Positions 53,456 to 60,799 of a stretch of DNA of 64,000 bases are shown here, one piece after another. Position numbers and translations under genes: made by a program. The DNA is taken from assembly GCA_025408425.1 (NCBI GenBank), contig JANXYX010000005.1:57652-121651 (forward strand). Reading direction: 5' to 3'. Position 1 is the first letter of the stretch, and each line of letters opens with the position of its first letter. The notes beneath the pieces were generated by a model that was not told the DNA's origin, made no database searches, and saw nothing but the letters and a program-made list of their open reading frames with translations. The DNA is from Granulicella sp. Lineage in GTDB: Bacteria > Acidobacteriota > Terriglobia > Terriglobales > Acidobacteriaceae.

Positions 53456-54207
53456 TACGCAGGCCTCTGCTGGAGCAAGTCAAAAAAACCTCTTTCAATC
53501 TCCGCCAACTGCGCTGCAACGCCAAGCTCAACTCTGCCGACACTCGTCTCCAGAACACAGTCGCCTGTCTGTTGACGTGAGTCTCCAAGCACTTTCACGT
53601 CCGCAGCCTCTGCCTCTTCTATCAATCTTCTCCATGCACTCTCGTCGGACATCGGCACTCGCAATAGAACACCGCTCTCGTCTGCAACCTTCCCCAGCGC
53701 AACCTTCACCACAGCCTGTAAAAGCAGCGGATCCAGCCGCACTTCACGATGCAGTATTCGTGCCGCAATCTCCAGTGCCAGCTTTACCACTTCACCTTCC
53801 ACCGCTGAAAAGTAACTCTCCCGCTCTTCTTTGAATCGGCTAACTGTCCGGATCACAAGCGCTTTCTCTGCAGCCACTCGCTCCGCGAATTCGTTCTCAA
53901 GATCCCCACGACCCTCCAGTCGACCGGCCGTATAGGCTGCTGCAAGTTCCTCTCCATGCCGCGTAGCATCAGGCTCCCCTCGTAGCCCCGTAGCCGCCAA
54001 CTCGTCTTCTAGACACAAAGCGTTCGCTAGATTGCTCACGGTCGCGCAATCGGCCACAGTTCCTGCTTGCAGCATCTCGACAGCTTCGAATTGCAATCGC
54101 GAAATATGTTTGCCGCCTCCAATCTTCGCCATCAGTGGCCCGGGGGAGAACACCAAAGCCTCCACTCCAGGGCGAACCTGTACCTGTTGCTCAGATTGCA
54201 AAGTCAT
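53455..54207 (-). CDS. fliH: Flagellar assembly protein FliH
   Basis: About 250 residues from the ATG at 54207 (GAGG six bases upstream). It starts inside the fliG end (17-bp overlap). A charged helical N-terminal half with RLEGRGDLENEFAERVAAEK is followed by a FliH/SctL/HrpE-like C-terminal domain (about 120-250) with EGEVVKLALEIAARILHREV and LLRVPMSDESAWRRLIEEAE. FliH binds FliI and restrains its ATPase. The call rests on domain similarity and on the fliF-fliG-fliH-fliI order. Confidence 0.92.
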   Translation of the reverse strand: MTLQSEQQVQVRPGVEALVFSPGPLMAKIGGGKHISRLQFEAVEMLQAGTVADCATVSNLANALCLEDELAATGLRGEPDATRHGEELAAAYTAGRLEGRGDLENEFAERVAAEKALVIRTVSRFKEERESYFSAVEGEVVKLALEIAARILHREVRLDPLLLQAVVKVALGKVADESGVLLRVPMSDESAWRRLIEEAEAADVKVLGDSRQQTGDCVLETSVGRVELGVAAQLAEIERGFFDLLQQRPA

Positions 54208-55279
54208 CGTCCGCCTCAATTCTCAGGATGATCTTTCCATCGTTCTCCATCTTCTGTGCCAAGGCCAATAGCTCCAGTTTTGCAGCAGCGACATCCCTGC
54301 TTCGCACTGGCCCCATTGCTTCCAAATCCTCCTTCAGCATCTCCACCGCTCTCGAACTCATCGCCTGAAATAGGTGGGCCTTAATGTCCTCCTGCGCTCC
54401 CTTCAGCGCTAGTGTCAGCACCCTCTTGTCGGCTGCACTAACCAGCTCCCGAATACTTTGGGCTGGCACCGTCAACAGATCATCGAAGGTAAACATAAGG
54501 CTCCGGATGCTGATCGCCAGCTGTGGCTCTTTTTCTTCAATCGTCTCAAGAATATCCTTACTGGCTCCCTGTTCCATTCCGTTCAAAATATCTGCCACAG
54601 CCTTGAAGCCCGAGTAAGTCTTTCTTCCATTCGATCCCAGACTCTCCATCCGTTTATGCAGTACAACCGCCACTTTCTGAGCCATCTCTGGTGAGAACTG
54701 CCGCATCGCCGCAAGCTTTCGAACCGCATCCACTCGCATCGACTCCTGCATATGCATCAGAACCGTAGAGCCACGCTTCGCCTCCAGATGTGCCAGAACC
54801 AATGCCACGGTCTGCGGATGTTCTCTTTCTAAGAACTTGCTTAATTGTTGCGGCTCCATTCTCTGCAACATTGCGAGGTCACCCGTCGATCGCTCGCGAA
54901 CATTCGCCATCTGTGCCAGCAACTGCTGTGCCTTCTGAGCCCCAAACGCTTCTGTAAGTAGTTTCGAGGCATATTCTGGGCCGCCCCTTACGATGTACTG
55001 CTGAGTCTCCAGCAAACCGTAAAACTCAGTCAGCACTTGCGTCAGTTGCGTTGCTGGAACCGCCCCAACCTTACTGATTTCATCCGTCACCCGTTGCACA
55101 TCCTGCTCTGACAGGCTCTGAAATAACATCTTCGCAAGCTCATCCCCCAGAGCCACCATTAGGATCGCGGCCTTTCGCAATCCCGATACTTCCGCCGGTG
55201 CAAACCCTGCCTCCGCCGGCAGTATCAACGCGCCTTGCCTGCGTCGCACCACACCGCTCGCCTGCGCTACTACTGCCAT
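54191..55279 (-). CDS. fliG: Flagellar motor switch protein FliG
   Basis: 362 residues from the ATG at 55279. The fliF stop overlaps this start (TAATG). FliG motifs include GLRKAAILMVALGDELAKML, EQDVQRVTDEISKVG, the middle-domain EHPQTVALVLAHLEAKRGST (EHPQ motif) and the C-terminal MFTFDDLLTVPAQSIRELVS, with the conserved charged torque helix region KADKRVL-like and SSRAVEMLKEDLEAMGPVRS. FliG couples the MS ring to the stator. Confidence 0.96.
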   Translation of the reverse strand: MAVVAQASGVVRRRQGALILPAEAGFAPAEVSGLRKAAILMVALGDELAKMLFQSLSEQDVQRVTDEISKVGAVPATQLTQVLTEFYGLLETQQYIVRGGPEYASKLLTEAFGAQKAQQLLAQMANVRERSTGDLAMLQRMEPQQLSKFLEREHPQTVALVLAHLEAKRGSTVLMHMQESMRVDAVRKLAAMRQFSPEMAQKVAVVLHKRMESLGSNGRKTYSGFKAVADILNGMEQGASKDILETIEEKEPQLAISIRSLMFTFDDLLTVPAQSIRELVSAADKRVLTLALKGAQEDIKAHLFQAMSSRAVEMLKEDLEAMGPVRSRDVAAAKLELLALAQKMENDGKIILRIEADDDFAI

Positions 55280-57063
55280 TACTCTTTCTCCTCGCCCGCG
55301 CCAATCCACGCTTCCAGTAGACGCGTGCTCTGCACTGGCTCACGTCGAATGTGATCGGTCACATGTTCAAATATTCCCCGGCTAACACTCCCGGCACGGG
55401 ATGCTTCCGGCCCCGCCTCCGTCCCATCTGTTAGCCGCTCCGTTTGTGGGGCTGCTATCTGCTCGTGCCCAACCATAGATCCGGCTGAACTCTTTGCTGA
55501 GTTCGTCTCAGCCAGCAGCAACGGCTCATTCAACGTATCCTTCACTTGCTGCGCCACTGGTTTCAACACAAATAAAACGATCAATACTCCACACAGCCCG
55601 ATCATCAGCGTCCGCGCCAATCCAGGCTGCGAGTGCAGCAGCCCCTTCAAACTCTCTGCAACACGGTCCATCCCTGCCGCCTTCAACACTGGCGCATTCG
55701 ACATGAATCCCACGTTCTCCATCACCACTTGATCTCCACGCTTTGCGTCATAGCCCACTGCGGCCTGTGCCAACTGTTCCAGCCGCCTCATCTCCTCCGC
55801 ACTACGCGGCTTCCACACCGTTTGCTCCTGTTTGCCTGCACCATCGCTTACCGCGCGATCATTCACTACTACCGCAGCGGTCACTCGCCGGACACGCCCT
55901 GGTCCCTGCTCCGTGTGCATTAGATGTTTGCTCACTGCATACGTGCCGTTCTCCTGTCGAATACTCTGCCCCTGTCCGCCGCTTTGCGGATATACCGGCA
56001 ACAACTCACGCTGCAATAATGGTGGCGTCCCCGGAGCAGCAGCTGCCTGCGACCCCGCCACTGCTCCCGTTGGTGCGGGTGTCGGCGAATTGCTTGCCGT
56101 ACCTGGCACGCCGCTGGCTCGAGCTTGGGTTGCGGATGTCTGTTCGTTCTTCTGCATCGTCACCGTAGCGATCTCGCTCGGATCGTAAATCTCATCTGTT
56201 CGCTCCTCCGCGCCCTCGTCATAACTCACGTTCACCGTCGCGCGAACATTGTCACGGCCTGCCAGCGGCTCCAGCACCGATATCAGCTTTGCCTCCATCG
56301 CCTGTTCCACGTCACCCGCGGCAGCATCCTTCAGCCGCGGCTTTAGATTCACCCGTCCATCAGCATCCACTAGAGTGACTTGCTCAGGACTCAGGCTCTC
56401 GACTGATCCGGCCACTAAACTCCGAATAGCCTCCACCTGCTCTGGATCCATTGCTGCTCTTTTTAACTTCAACACCACCGAAGCCTTCGCCACCTTCTCC
56501 TTGTCGACAAACAGGCTTTGTTGAGGAAGCACTAAATGCACCCGCGCCGAATGCACTGCGCTGATCGTTCCGATTGTGTGTTCAAGTTCTCCTTCCAGTG
56601 CCCGCTGATAGTTCACGCGTTCGTCGAACTCGCTGCCTACCCAATTCGGCTTATCGAACAATTCAAAACCCAGTCGACCTGTCTGCGGCATGCCCTTCGT
56701 AGCCACCTCCATCCTGGCCTTATCCAGCATCTCCGCAGGCACCTGTATCCCCGAACCGTCTGCAGTCATTTCGTACGGAACACTCGCCGCCGCCAATTCC
56801 TGCGACACCTGCTGCACATCCTTGCCCTCAAGTCCGGAGAACAACACTCTCCAATCCGGCCGCTGCGCAAACCAAACCATCCCCGCGCACGCCGCCGCCA
56901 AAAATGCTACCGAAGCCAACAACCACGTCCGCTTCCCGGCTGGCATCGCAGCAAGCCTCTGCCGCAATGCTGCAACCATCGCCGCTATCTGCTCCGCCGG
57001 ACCGTCTGCCACTTCAGCCTCTCCAACCCGCCGAAGTCCTGCTGCTTGTCCCGTCTCTGCCAT
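55279..57063 (-). CDS. fliF: Flagellar MS-ring protein FliF
   Basis: 594 residues from the ATG at 57063, preceded by GGAGG. The YscJ/FliF core is AQRPDWRVLFSGLEGKDVQQ, with a first membrane helix (WLLASVAFLAAACAGMVWFA) before it and NWVGSEFDERVNYQRALEGE, LEHTIGTISAVHSARVHLVL after it. A second helix lies at about 480-500 (RTLMIGLCGVLIVLFVLKPV). The C-terminus binds FliG. A proline- and serine-rich linker (about 310-345) is present. Confidence 0.96.
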   Translation of the reverse strand: MAETGQAAGLRRVGEAEVADGPAEQIAAMVAALRQRLAAMPAGKRTWLLASVAFLAAACAGMVWFAQRPDWRVLFSGLEGKDVQQVSQELAAASVPYEMTADGSGIQVPAEMLDKARMEVATKGMPQTGRLGFELFDKPNWVGSEFDERVNYQRALEGELEHTIGTISAVHSARVHLVLPQQSLFVDKEKVAKASVVLKLKRAAMDPEQVEAIRSLVAGSVESLSPEQVTLVDADGRVNLKPRLKDAAAGDVEQAMEAKLISVLEPLAGRDNVRATVNVSYDEGAEERTDEIYDPSEIATVTMQKNEQTSATQARASGVPGTASNSPTPAPTGAVAGSQAAAAPGTPPLLQRELLPVYPQSGGQGQSIRQENGTYAVSKHLMHTEQGPGRVRRVTAAVVVNDRAVSDGAGKQEQTVWKPRSAEEMRRLEQLAQAAVGYDAKRGDQVVMENVGFMSNAPVLKAAGMDRVAESLKGLLHSQPGLARTLMIGLCGVLIVLFVLKPVAQQVKDTLNEPLLLAETNSAKSSAGSMVGHEQIAAPQTERLTDGTEAGPEASRAGSVSRGIFEHVTDHIRREPVQSTRLLEAWIGAGEEKE

Positions 57064-57126
57064 CAACCAAAGCTCCCCTCCAATACCTCAAAACGTCTCG
57101 CCGTTCAGCCAACATCTACGCTTTAC

Positions 57127-57453
57127 TTAAAACTGCAAATTCATCATTTGCTGGTACGCAGCAACCGCCTTGTTCCGCACCTGAAGAGCTAACTCAAATG
57201 CCATATCAGCTTTCTGCGTCGCGATCATTGCATCGTGAATCTCGCCTCCCTGGCCACTGATCACGCCCGTCACCGCCTGTGCTGCCTGTTGATCCAGGGC
57301 CGCCGTCTGCTGCACCATAGCCCGCATCATCCCCGCAAACGGAACTCCCGCGGCGCTCGCAGCATCGGTGGAAATTTCACTACTCTGTAGGCCGCCAATC
57401 GTTCCCGCGATCCGGCCCAACCCATTGCCAAGTTCGTTTCCAAGTCCCGTCAT
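57127..57453 (-). CDS. fliE: Flagellar hook-basal body protein FliE
   Basis: 108 residues. The C-terminal FliE signature is IHDAMIATQKADMAFELALQ followed by VRNKAVAAYQQMMNLQF. The N-terminal half is variable. FliE joins the MS ring to the rod. Gene order flgB-flgC-fliE-fliF is classic. Confidence 0.95.
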   Translation of the reverse strand: MTGLGNELGNGLGRIAGTIGGLQSSEISTDAASAAGVPFAGMMRAMVQQTAALDQQAAQAVTGVISGQGGEIHDAMIATQKADMAFELALQVRNKAVAAYQQMMNLQF

Positions 57454-57487
57454 CTTTCGTCTCCTCTAGCTAGAACATCCGCCACTA

Positions 57488-57997
57488 CTACTTCAATATC
57501 TCCAGCGATGCAGTAACCATGCCCTTTTCTGCCTGTACTGCTGAAGCGTTCATTCCATAAGCACGTGTCGCGCCCATCAGATCCACCATCTCTGTCAACG
57601 GACTAATGTCCGGATACGCCACATATCCATCCGCTCCGGCATCAGGGTGCTGCGGGTCATATCTCATCAAGGGTGCGCTGGCATCACTGATCACGCCCGT
57701 CACTGCAACTCCGCCTGAAACCGTCTTCGCATCGGTATAACTGCCTGGGAAACTACTCATAAATCCCCCACTCGAACCGCTGCTAATCGATCCCATCTCG
57801 CCCATCTGGCCAACCAGCGACTGCTGGAAACTACCTCCGCCCTCAGCCGAGAACACGACATGATGTCGCTGGTACGGCCCTCCTTCCGGCGTCTGTGTCG
57901 TCTCCGCATTTGCCATATTCGAGGCCACCACCTCCGCCCGCACTCGCTCTGCCTTCAACGCTGAGGCACTCACATCCATCACGCCAAATAGATTCAT
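57488..57997 (-). CDS. flgC: Flagellar basal-body rod protein FlgC
   Basis: 169 residues. The N-terminal rod motif is LFGVMDVSASALKAERVRAE followed by VVASNMANAETTQTPEGG, and the C-terminal motif is DPQHPDADGYVA-like (DPQHPDAGADGYVAYPDISP) and TEMVDLMGATRAYGMNASAV. It has a serine/glycine-rich insert (about 75-105) that makes it slightly longer than the usual ~140 residues. It starts just after the flgB stop. Confidence 0.94.
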   Translation of the reverse strand: MNLFGVMDVSASALKAERVRAEVVASNMANAETTQTPEGGPYQRHHVVFSAEGGGSFQQSLVGQMGEMGSISSGSSGGFMSSFPGSYTDAKTVSGGVAVTGVISDASAPLMRYDPQHPDAGADGYVAYPDISPLTEMVDLMGATRAYGMNASAVQAEKGMVTASLEILK

Positions 57998-57999
57998 GT

Positions 58000-58359
58000 C
58001 TACTTGACCTCCGCGCGAATTGCGCTCATCACATTAGTAAATTCATGCTTCAGCAGCTCCACTCCCAGGCGAAACTGTAGCTGGGTCTTTGCCAACTGAA
58101 TACCCTCGCGGTCCATGGAGACATTGTTCCCATCCGGTCGCGCGACCAGGCCATCCACATTCACCGCTTGGGCCGGATGTTGCCTACTATCCGCGCTGCT
58201 ATTAAGCAGCCGTGTCATCTCCTGCTCAAAGTCAAACCCCTGCGCCTTATACCCAGGCGTATCGATATTGGCCATATTGCCTGTTGTCAACTTCATCTGA
58301 TCGCTCGTCAGATCCAGATACCGCCCTAAAGCGTCACTCAGCGCTGTCGTCACTTGCAT
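58000..58359 (-). CDS. flgB: Flagellar basal-body rod protein FlgB
   Basis: 119 residues from the ATG at 58359, preceded by GGAGGT six bases upstream. The rod motif LSDALGRYLDLTSDQMKLTT and GNMANIDTPGYKAQGFDFEQ, and the C-terminal FRLGVELLKHEFTNVMSAIR segment, are typical. An in-frame ATG at 58401 is a poorer start. It is the first structural gene of the cluster, and a terminator hairpin and a sigma-54-like site lie upstream. Confidence 0.95.
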   Translation of the reverse strand: MQVTTALSDALGRYLDLTSDQMKLTTGNMANIDTPGYKAQGFDFEQEMTRLLNSSADSRQHPAQAVNVDGLVARPDGNNVSMDREGIQLAKTQLQFRLGVELLKHEFTNVMSAIRAEVK

Positions 58360-58384
58360 CGTTGCACCTCCACGCAAGTACGAA

Positions 58385-58400
58385 TGCACTCCACCAACCA
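58385..58400 (-). promoter_or_regulatory. Weak candidate sigma-54 promoter before flgB
   Basis: The minus strand reads TGGTTGGTGGAGTGCA: GG-N10-GC spacing, GTGCA at -12, but the -24 element lacks CAC. It lies between a terminator hairpin and the flgB ribosome site, with a predicted start near 58374. The position is better than the sequence. Confidence 0.3.
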
Positions 58401-58428
58401 AACGAAAGCGCCCTCAAATGAGGACGCT
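58398..58428 (-). terminator. Terminator-like hairpin between the regulator gene and flgB
   Basis: In minus-strand RNA AGCGUCCUC pairs with GAGGGCGCU (one G-U pair, loop AUUU), followed by UUCGUUUGG. It lies about 65 bp after the sigma-54 activator stop and would separate regulatory genes from the structural operon. Confidence 0.55.
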
Positions 58429-58491: not shown

Positions 58492-59793
58492 TCAGCTTCG
58501 AGTGGCTCGTCGAAAACGAATCTCCTCTACCCCAATCTCCCGCCTCGCCCCACACAGAATTGATGCACGCTCCAACACATGCATCAACTCGCGAACATTT
58601 CCCGGCCAGTTATATTCCTGCAGCTTTGCCGCAGCTTCAGCAGTCAGTCGCTTCCGCGGCATAGCCTGCCCAAGCTGCTCCAGAAAGTACTCCGTCAACA
58701 GGCTCATATCTTCCATCCGAGTTCGCAGCGCCGGAACCTCCACCGGAAAAACCGCCAGCCGATGATATAAATCAAGCCGGAAAGTCCTCTCCGTAGCCCG
58801 CTGCTCAAGTGGTTGATGAGTCGCCGCAATCACTCGCACATCTACCCGCAAAGTCTCGTTGTCACCCACTCGCTGCAATTCGCCACACTCTAGGAAGCGC
58901 AGCATCTTCGCCTGCAGCGCCATCGGCATCTCCCCAATCTCATCCAAAAATAGTGTTCCTCCATCCGCCGCCTCAATCCGTCCCGTCCGCGATTGCACCG
59001 CACCGGTGAAGGCCCCCCGCGTATGCCCGAACAACTCAGCCTCCAACAATGCCTCAGGAATTGCCGCGCAATTCAGCACAGCAAATGGTCGGCCGGCTCT
59101 GGCACTCAATCGGTGCAGTGACCTAGCCACTACTTCTTTGCCAGTCCCCGTCTCACCCTCAATCAACACAGTGGTCGAACGCGGAGCCACCATCCGAATC
59201 AACGCCGCCAACTCCCGCATTGGCTCACTCGTCCCGACCATCTCCGGGAGCATCAGTGCTTCAGGCAACGCCGACCCCACGCCGCCCGCCAGTATCTCCC
59301 GCCTGTCTGTATCTTCCCGCACCGCTATCTGCGACGGATACTGCGCCCCCGTTATCCTGGTTCCCAGCGCACGCCCTCCACTCCCTGGCACTACCAGCGG
59401 AGCCGACGCCCAGACCGCCGTATCGTTCAACGGAGCATCCTGAGCCTCACGCAAAGCATGCAGCAGTTCATTCCTCCGTGGACTACGAGCCCCTCCGCTC
59501 TCCGTCGAACCATCGACTCGCAGCAACTCCATTCCCGGATACATTAGCCGAATCTGACCAGCAAACTCACTGACTTCCAAATCTGGCAGCCAGCTATCTA
59601 CCAGCAGAGCCTCTGAACGTGAAGCCTCCAAAAAGGCCAGTGCCTCCGCCCCTCCACCAGCCTCTCGTACCTGCCACCGAAGTCCCGTCAACGAAGCCCG
59701 AAGTCTCTGCCGCAATCCCATATCCGCAATCGCCAAAACCACAGTCCGCATCATTCCTACATCCACCAGCCCCGACGTCGCTCCTGCTGCCAT
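58492..59793 (-). CDS. Sigma-54 activator (AAA+) with degenerate receiver domain and no DNA-binding domain
   Basis: 433 residues, NtrC family. The N-terminal 1-100 resemble a receiver domain: the putative acceptor Asp66 is in ALLVDSWLPDLE, but the acidic pair and the late Lys are not clear. The AAA+ core has Walker A GETGTGKE (213-220), the sigma-54 contact loop GAFTGA (260-265) and Walker B LFLDEIGEMP (281-290). The protein ends soon after NWPGNVREL, with VEEIRFRRATRS, so the usual Fis-type helix-turn-helix is missing, as in the FlgR of epsilonproteobacteria. It probably activates flagellar sigma-54 promoters from solution. The start overlaps the upstream stop (TAATG). Confidence 0.9.
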   Translation of the reverse strand: MAAGATSGLVDVGMMRTVVLAIADMGLRQRLRASLTGLRWQVREAGGGAEALAFLEASRSEALLVDSWLPDLEVSEFAGQIRLMYPGMELLRVDGSTESGGARSPRRNELLHALREAQDAPLNDTAVWASAPLVVPGSGGRALGTRITGAQYPSQIAVREDTDRREILAGGVGSALPEALMLPEMVGTSEPMRELAALIRMVAPRSTTVLIEGETGTGKEVVARSLHRLSARAGRPFAVLNCAAIPEALLEAELFGHTRGAFTGAVQSRTGRIEAADGGTLFLDEIGEMPMALQAKMLRFLECGELQRVGDNETLRVDVRVIAATHQPLEQRATERTFRLDLYHRLAVFPVEVPALRTRMEDMSLLTEYFLEQLGQAMPRKRLTAEAAAKLQEYNWPGNVRELMHVLERASILCGARREIGVEEIRFRRATRS

Positions 59794-60044
59794 TATCTCG
59801 ATCCCCTGTTCTCTTCATTGGCTTCCATCGCTTGAACTACAAGACTTCGCATTGTCTCCACCGCAGCATTCAGGCGCAGACACTCATGCACCCCATCCAC
59901 CATCGCCTCCCGCATCGCGTCGGGACCACCTTTCAACATGCCCAGTTCCAACTTGCACCGCAACACTGTCAACGGCTGACACAACTCGTGCAACGCCACT
60001 TCAATTCCAGAAATCACATCCAATTCCACCCGGGCCGAATCCAT
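59793..60044 (-). CDS. Stand-alone 83-residue histidine-kinase dimerisation/phosphotransfer-like protein
   Basis: 83 residues. The segment ALHELCQPLTVLRCKLELG has the H-box shape of HisKA domains (H-E-L-x-x-P-L-T), with His19 as the candidate phosphosite. It is followed by a second helix ending LNAAVETMRSLVVQAMEANE. There is no ATP-binding (HATPase_c) domain, sensor or membrane segment. It overlaps the OmpR-type gene at its start and the sigma-54 activator at its end (both TAATG junctions), so the three are translationally coupled. It might act as a minimal phosphotransfer or dimerisation adapter between the two regulators, or with an unlinked kinase. The function is inferred. Confidence 0.75.
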   Translation of the reverse strand: MDSARVELDVISGIEVALHELCQPLTVLRCKLELGMLKGGPDAMREAMVDGVHECLRLNAAVETMRSLVVQAMEANEENRGSR

Positions 60045-60799
60045 TAAGCGCCCACCAAGCCAATGCCTGCAGCAGCCCCCAAGCGGTCCTCGTACACCGA
60101 GACCACCATCTTCCGCACACCCGCCATCTGATACCCCTCGCCGCGCACCGTCTCGATAACAGCGCCATCCATGTCTCCTTCGCGCACCACCGCTCCAAGT
60201 TTCTTGCGGAGATAGTTAACGTAGACATCTACAACATTCGTTCCCGCATCCGGAGACATATGCCAGACCTCCCGTAGTAGTTCGATCCGCGTGCAACACC
60301 GCCCGCCTCGGCGCATCAAGAACTCCAGCAGTGAAAACTCCTTCGCTGTCAGTTCGATCCCGCAGCCATTCCGTGTCACCCTGCGCTCCATTCGGTTTAT
60401 CTCCACCTCACCGTGTCGCAGTATCGGATCAGCAAAGTTCTCCCGCCGCCGCAGCAACGCTCTACACCGCGCCGTCAGTTCATGGAAGCTGAATGGTTTC
60501 AGCAGGCAATCGTCCGCACCAAGGTTCAAACACTTCACCCGTTCTTCTACCTGGCTGCGGCCCGTCAACACCAGTACCGCCGTCCCATTAAACTGACCGC
60601 GCATCTCCGCCAACACCTCGGTTCCATCCTTGCGAGGCAAGCTCAGGTCTAAGACAATCAGATCCGGTCGATGCTCACGCGCGTATTGCAAGCCAGCCTC
60701 TCCGTCGCCAACCCAGGCGACCTCATGACCCTCGAGCTTCAACCCCTTCTGCAGAAACAACCCAAGTGCAGCATCATCTTCCACAATCAATACCTGCAT
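60044..60799 (-). CDS. OmpR/PhoB-type response regulator at the head of the flagellar locus
   Basis: 251 residues. The receiver domain is intact: Asp8-Asp9, phosphoacceptor Asp51 (LIVLDLSLPRKDG), Thr79 and Lys101 (KPFSFHELTAR). The C-terminal winged-helix domain (about 125-220) shows LTAKEFSLLEFLMRRGGRCC, RIELLREVWHMSPD and TNVVDVYVNYLRKKLG. About 25 extra residues follow the wing (from VRKMVVSVYED). No histidine kinase gene adjoins it except the 83-residue HisKA-like gene that overlaps its stop. It probably controls this locus or its own promoter in 60800-61024. Confidence 0.93.
   Translation of the reverse strand: MQVLIVEDDAALGLFLQKGLKLEGHEVAWVGDGEAGLQYAREHRPDLIVLDLSLPRKDGTEVLAEMRGQFNGTAVLVLTGRSQVEERVKCLNLGADDCLLKPFSFHELTARCRALLRRRENFADPILRHGEVEINRMERRVTRNGCGIELTAKEFSLLEFLMRRGGRCCTRIELLREVWHMSPDAGTNVVDVYVNYLRKKLGAVVREGDMDGAVIETVRGEGYQMAGVRKMVVSVYEDRLGAAAGIGLVGA

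Follow-up and report, generated by a model that had tools for sequence, protein, structure and literature searches.

We found a gene in a Granulicella sp. that encodes what is, by its sequence, the DHp part of a sensor kinase without an ATPase domain. The gene lies in a stretch of 64,000 nucleotides (contig JANXYX010000005.1, positions 57,652 to 121,651; here called the window), between the genes of an OmpR-type response regulator and a sigma-54 activator (Table 1). It is a conserved, natural, ATPase-free DHp gene, which we place tentatively among the degenerate-kinase phosphotransferases. In the open-access literature on DHp-only or truncated kinases, taken by title and the start of the abstract, we found no earlier description of a DHp-only protein. 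We suggest, giving the idea an even chance of being right, that the 83-aa protein could be a phosphotransfer node of the Spo0B/ChpT kind, in which His19 would receive a phosphoryl group from a different protein and exchange it with the OmpR-type regulator, whose gene directly precedes its own.

Table 1. The three-gene module and the adjoining flagellar genes (positions in the window)
Feature	Position	Strand	Remarks
OmpR/PhoB-type response regulator, receiver and winged helix	60044..60799	-	pocket E7, D8, D9, D51, T79, K101 complete; likely partner
TAATG overlap, regulator stop and DHp gene start	60042..60046	-	
83-aa stand-alone HisKA/DHp-like gene	59793..60044	-	His19, Gln23, Pro24; predicted phosphotransfer node
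TAATG overlap, DHp gene stop and sigma-54 activator start	59791..59795	-	
Sigma-54 activator	58492..59793	-	degenerate receiver (Asp66 kept, acidic pair lost), AAA+ with GAFTGA, no C-terminal DNA-binding domain
flgB, flgC, fliE, fliF, fliG	54191..58401	-	directly downstream of the module; names presumed from recognition of the sequences

A conserved gene joined by overlaps to two regulator genes

The frame runs on the minus strand from 60044 to 59793, from ATG to TAA, and has 83 codons and a stop. The initial annotation had described this frame without giving its strand, and had noted a HELCQPLT segment with His19, TAATG joins on both sides and no ATPase domain; the reading frame and both junctions bear this out. 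The ATG of the DHp gene uses the A of the regulator's TAA, one base being common to the regulator stop and the DHp start (CTTAATGG). Likewise, the ATG of the activator begins on the last A of the DHp TAA, and these two genes also have a single base in common (GATAATGG).

The 83-aa frame is a genuine gene and not a product of chance, because it has short relatives, occurs in nearly all genomes of the genus, keeps its gene order and has a low dN/dS. In a protein search, seven more proteins matched it, with lengths of 73-84 aa. At E<=0.01, there were matches in 47 of the 50 genomes of the genus (its own genome included) and in 130 of 398 genomes of the family, where strong matches lay mostly in small frames and weak ones mostly in longer frames. 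The median dN/dS (Nei-Gojobori, ten close genomes) was 0.149 for the DHp gene, from 38/45 usable pairs, and 0.079 for the regulator, from 36/45.

We collected 106 loci from 105 genomes, nearly all from the family matches at E<=0.01, with part of the weak matches fetched. The middle gene was obtained in 104 of them and was short in 83 and long in 21; one of the two loci that were dropped has an ordinary full kinase (G152) and in the other no such gene was found (G066). The short genes belong to the genus of the window (47) and to two other genera, g64 (22) and g32 (14), and the long ones are spread over eight other genera. Short forms found by motif had 74-125 aa. The three-gene order, proposed as a check in the initial annotation, held in all of the first 30 loci (L001-L030; two regulators were cut by contig ends). 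The activator followed the DHp gene in 80 of the 83 short loci (68/71 found by motif and 12/12 found by BLAST); two of the three exceptions end at a contig edge (L122, L138) and the third does not (L120).

With a profile of 34 members, a search tool restricted to proteins of ~46-145 aa gave 1343 proteins at E<=1e-3, and among the matches listed (120 of 1343) lengths were 81-101 aa. Outside the family, there were 11 matches in a sample of the class (399 genomes, E<=1e-8) and two in a sample of the phylum (396 genomes, E<=1e-5), all in frames of at least 215 aa. Thus, no short form was found outside the family in these two samples, with no more than 13 or 14 initial candidates scored per genome. 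A plasmid search gave no match to the 83-aa protein.

The gene might be a functionless, decaying remnant of a kinase gene, given that similar regulators are followed by longer versions whose ATPase region is degenerate (see below). However, this explanation is already contradicted by constraint: the dN/dS is low, 12 columns are invariant among 34 aligned sequences, and the gene is present throughout most of the genus and has many relatives in the small-protein search. We consider it extremely improbable.

Homology to the HisKA/DHp domain

By sequence comparison, the 83-aa protein is a stand-alone HisKA/DHp homologue, a relationship that is weak in its own Pfam match and clear through its relatives. 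Alone, it matched HisKA (PF00512) with E=0.05 and 14.1 bits, which does not reach the gathering score (26.9 bits); the match covers both helices of the profile. In contrast, 24 of 34 aligned relatives matched HisKA at E<=1 (the best at 5.3e-6), a profile of the short forms matched a profile of the long relatives with a probability of 98.7 (E=3.6e-16, 61 columns), and a single long relative scored 40.2 bits against the same cut-off. The HisKA ancestry put forward in the initial annotation is therefore upheld through the relatives, while the protein by itself stays under the Pfam cut-off. Hpt (PF01627), the other profile named in the initial annotation, was absent from the Pfam matches of the protein up to E=10.

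We infer that the 83-aa protein dimerizes. Its AF2 monomer model (34 sequences) was one continuous straight helix (pLDDT 83.5, pTM 0.58), whereas the model of one long relative had a DHp hairpin and an ATPase fold (pLDDT 88.4, pTM 0.81). Compared to the window sequence, relatives have insertions before H+16 (1), H+22 (5) and H+30 (2) and deletions at H+22 (2), and Gly and Pro are most frequent at H+16, +20 and +22, the place expected for a hairpin turn. Together, the indels and the Gly and Pro residues cluster between H+16 and H+30, whereas the lone model goes against a hairpin.

Conserved residues and proposed phosphoryl chemistry

The His, the Gln at +4 and the Pro at +5 were kept in 78/78 distinct short cores and 21/21 long cores, counts that may be biased because the first-pass locus motif itself demands His and Q-P. 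The 15 loci missed by the motif were searched by BLAST, and all 13 that had a middle gene have His and Q-P. Conservation of His19, which the initial annotation had also proposed to check, is therefore complete in these cores. Thr at +7 was present in 75/78 distinct short cores. An acid at H+1 was found in 49/78 short cores and 3/21 long cores. The Thr or Asn typical of HisKA at H+4 was not found in the short cores, which all have Gln there.

The protein is unlikely to phosphorylate itself, because it has no ATP-binding domain and the H+1 acid is not conserved. In the HisKA kinases tested, this acid is needed for kinase and not phosphatase activity, according to the available text of PMC3510030. 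The His is invariant and sits on a DHp scaffold encoded next to a complete receiver, which points to phosphotransfer, as in ChpT and Spo0B; survival of the H+1 acid in well over half of the short cores goes against this reading. Much of this conservation would also be expected if the protein were a phosphatase of the regulator or an adaptor without catalytic activity.

A phosphatase dedicated to the OmpR-type regulator, or a sink into which its phosphate drains, would explain why Gln is invariant at H+4. This is the position of the Thr or Asn that HisKA kinases require for phosphatase activity only (PMC3510030, in the text available), and in HisKA_3 kinases a Gln one helical turn beyond the His serves the phosphatase reaction (PMC5231405, in the text available). 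However, the HisKA phosphatase residue is Thr or Asn and not Gln, and the His, which has a marginal or disputed part in phosphatase reactions as described in the same portion of PMC5231405, is invariant here. We regard a phosphatase or sink as unlikely.

Long relatives with a degenerate ATPase region

In other genera of the family and in other families of the class, a similar regulator is followed by a longer version, mostly of 214-271 aa, that consists of the same DHp and an ATPase-like region. All 15 long relatives scanned matched HisKA at E<=1 and none matched HATPase_c. The long-relative profile found whole kinase cores in the PDB (7zp0, named CusS, E=6.9e-15). A fold search returned no Spo0B or ChpT chain among the best 50 matches per program, a result that we did not count against a relation. 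Long forms found by motif had 214-260 aa except for two frames, one of 336 aa with an unsure start and one of 515 aa. The latter, in L149, looked like a fusion of the long form to the activator and was rejected: the frame crosses a run of N and reflects an assembly gap.

A quick tree was built from 100 regulator rows with an outgroup chosen among the long-form rows, so that the rooting is an assumption. In it, 79 short and two long rows clustered together (SH-aLRT 100), nested within the long forms. Two changes suffice for the distribution of short and long forms on this tree, and the ATPase region was likely lost once or twice. Because the short forms are nested in the long forms, a pseudo-kinase was probably trimmed down to its DHp. 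The concern that the homologues might be fragments of kinases is thus answered in two parts: they are whole small genes, but the long relatives with their degenerate ATPase region suggest an origin from a kinase.

Long versions in L098 (3795-4805) and L099 (907-1623) lie amid the short forms on the regulator tree and are possible intermediates. The one in L098 adjoins flgB, flgC and fliE.

The OmpR-type regulator is the likelier partner

The upstream regulator had strong Pfam matches to a receiver (1e-26) and a winged helix (1e-22). Its phosphorylation pocket was nearly invariant in 66 rows (E7 in 65, D8 in 66, D9 in 65, D51 in 66, T79 in 63 with Ser in 3, K101 in 66). The downstream activator matched the sigma-54 AAA+ family (2e-67) and, marginally, a receiver (0.042); no HTH or other DNA-binding family was among its Pfam matches. 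Among 60 aligned activator rows, which include one different activator and the window's sequence twice, the receiver Asp was kept in 60, and Ser and Ala took the two places of the acidic pair in 54 and 45 rows, respectively. Leaving out the different activator and the repeat, 58/58 sequences contained GAFTGA and ended 27-45 residues past a GNVREL-type motif, and therefore have no room for a DNA-binding domain.

Since the receiver of the regulator is complete and that of the activator is degenerate, the OmpR-type regulator appears to be the likelier partner of the DHp protein. A relay into the sigma-54 activator is doubtful, because its receiver has lost the acidic pair. Coevolution between the DHp and the receivers (75 loci, Neff 51), at assumed contact positions, was null for both: random sets were as high with frequencies of 0.54 for the regulator and 0.23 for the activator.

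The DHp might instead be a non-catalytic dimeric adaptor that binds the OmpR-type regulator, the activator or both through their receivers and joins them; DNA binding, which the activators lack, would then come from the regulator. The retention of GAFTGA in all activators, their receivers that keep the Asp and have mostly lost the acidic pair, and the regular presence of the activator behind the short gene are consistent with this. However, a scaffold needs no invariant His, and there was no coevolution signal. Moreover, the regulator-DHp pair exists without the activator: in 7/21 long-form loci, the gene was not directly followed by one in the stretch examined (an eighth, L149, seemed activator-free only through its assembly gap). 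We judge an adaptor to be somewhat unlikely. Less probable still, in our view, is a split sigma-54 switch, in which a bare DHp dimer would be a phospho-controlled clamp between the OmpR-type regulator and the AAA+ activator without DNA binding. If this were true, the three overlapping genes would make up one enhancer-binding activator, with phosphate relayed from elsewhere.

Helicobacter pylori FlgR is likewise a flagellar sigma-54 activator without a DNA-binding domain, according to the available text of PMC3930126. FlgR receives its phosphate from a full kinase, FlgS, whereas the activator of the module has a degenerate receiver and the module has no kinase.

Candidate phosphodonors

Among the window's reading frames from the regulator to flgB, there is no full histidine kinase. 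Matches in the genome number 25 for HATPase_c (some not kinases), 37 for receivers and 3 for Hpt, the last away from the module, and among these no donor could be named. A two-receiver hybrid kinase and an NtrB/FleS-like kinase are candidates only. By its look, a phosphorelay cluster at G000:C37:20295-22355 is a possible donor: a 577-aa frame with a kinase ATPase and two receivers has as neighbours a lone receiver and a small Hpt match, the latter possibly its own partner.

In L092 (1-4898) and L091 (3200-7999), one gene run contains the regulator, the DHp with a dead ATPase region and the activator without a DNA-binding domain, and continues with a PAS/FleS-like kinase and then an NtrC-type activator with a canonical receiver. 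A FleS-like kinase trails the module in another genus, and its best relative has 28% identity to it.

Alternatively, the 83-aa protein could be a DHp with a gene of its own that pairs with a full kinase and receives its phosphate in trans from the ATPase domain of that kinase. Some of the HATPase_c matches might supply such a domain, and the solved RetS-GacS DHp complex (7n0e, going by its title) is a case of kinase parts pairing in trans. However, the H+1 acid of the kinase reaction (PMC3510030, in the text available) is not conserved here, and we consider pairing of this kind very unlikely.

Comparison with known systems

A DHp-type phospho-His domain of kinase ancestry is present in the 83-aa protein by sequence homology. 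ChpT (Caulobacter) and Spo0B (Bacillus) are dimeric phosphotransferases, and ChpT is kinase-like in architecture and does not autophosphorylate with ATP, according to the available text of PMC3433190. They have in common with the 83-aa protein a kinase-like ancestry and a phospho-accepting His in a DHp-type hairpin, which is predicted here; a degenerate ATPase-like second domain is common to them and to the long relatives. Unlike them, the 83-aa protein lacks a second domain, its gene lies between those of two regulators, and its phosphotransfer is a prediction. PhyT/PhyP of Sphingomonas, as described in the available text of PMC5898713, are also a case of a degenerated kinase turned phosphotransferase at the locus of a regulator, but have an HRxxN motif and a membrane anchor and retain the degenerated ATPase domain. 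The DHp of class I kinases (PF00512; EnvZ, HK853, CusS) has the same H-box His and Pro at +5; the 83-aa protein differs from these in its missing ATPase domain, its Gln at +4, its unconserved H+1 acid and its Pfam score below the cut-off.

In Spo0B, ChpT and PhyT, an ATPase domain that is dead or altered has been retained, and its use is unclear. Here, one kind of regulator is followed by dead-ATPase versions in many genera and by a domain-free version that is still under selection. If our reading is true, the sufficiency of a bare DHp for phosphotransfer and the role of the dead domain become directly testable.

Flagellar context

Further downstream of the module, Pfam identified fliL, flgE, fliP, a Bac_export_1 protein, flhB, flhA, a FliA-like sigma factor and fliM; in a scan of ten downstream proteins, one was unmatched and one was FliK-like under the cut-off. 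We examined 21 named loci (Granulicella, Edaphobacter and other Acidobacteria records). Downstream of the module, flgC, fliE and fliF were present in 21 and flgB and fliG in 20 each; a contig end falls here in one locus. If our reading is true, the module would add an unstudied layer of control to acidobacterial flagella, including a sigma-54 activator without a DNA-binding domain. In the open-access literature on acidobacterial flagellar regulation, taken by title and the start of the abstract, we found no account of it.

The genome has one copy of rpoN. No clear sigma-54 promoter was found at the module or at flgB. Consensus sites numbered 41 in the window (34.8 expected) and, within 250 bases upstream in the named loci, 0/20 for the regulator (0.4 expected), 0/21 for the DHp gene (0.48), 3/21 for the activator (0.6) and 1/20 for flgB (0.68).

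The initial annotation had placed the gene in a flagellar locus, and we found that the module is linked to flagella here and in most of the short-form group, yet is not bound to them. Of the 50 genomes of the genus, 44 have both flgC and the DHp gene, three have neither, three have the DHp gene alone and none has flgC alone (Fisher p=0.001, relatedness ignored). The three with the DHp gene alone (G378, G395 and G397; 90, 83 and 96% complete) had no flgB, flgC, fliE or fliF on the module strand in the stretches examined (16 kb for G397), and most long forms had no match to these genes in the stretches examined either; L098 had one. The modules without flgC may have a non-flagellar use, or the assemblies may be incomplete. 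The three genomes group together on the regulator tree, and their three-gene modules are at L125 (G378), L116 (G395) and L160 (G397).

Cysteines are frequent in the DHp at H+3, H+11 and H+36 (residues 22, 30 and 55; 61, 68 and 49 of 78 cores). They are partly replaced within genus g32, and may have a redox or metal role.
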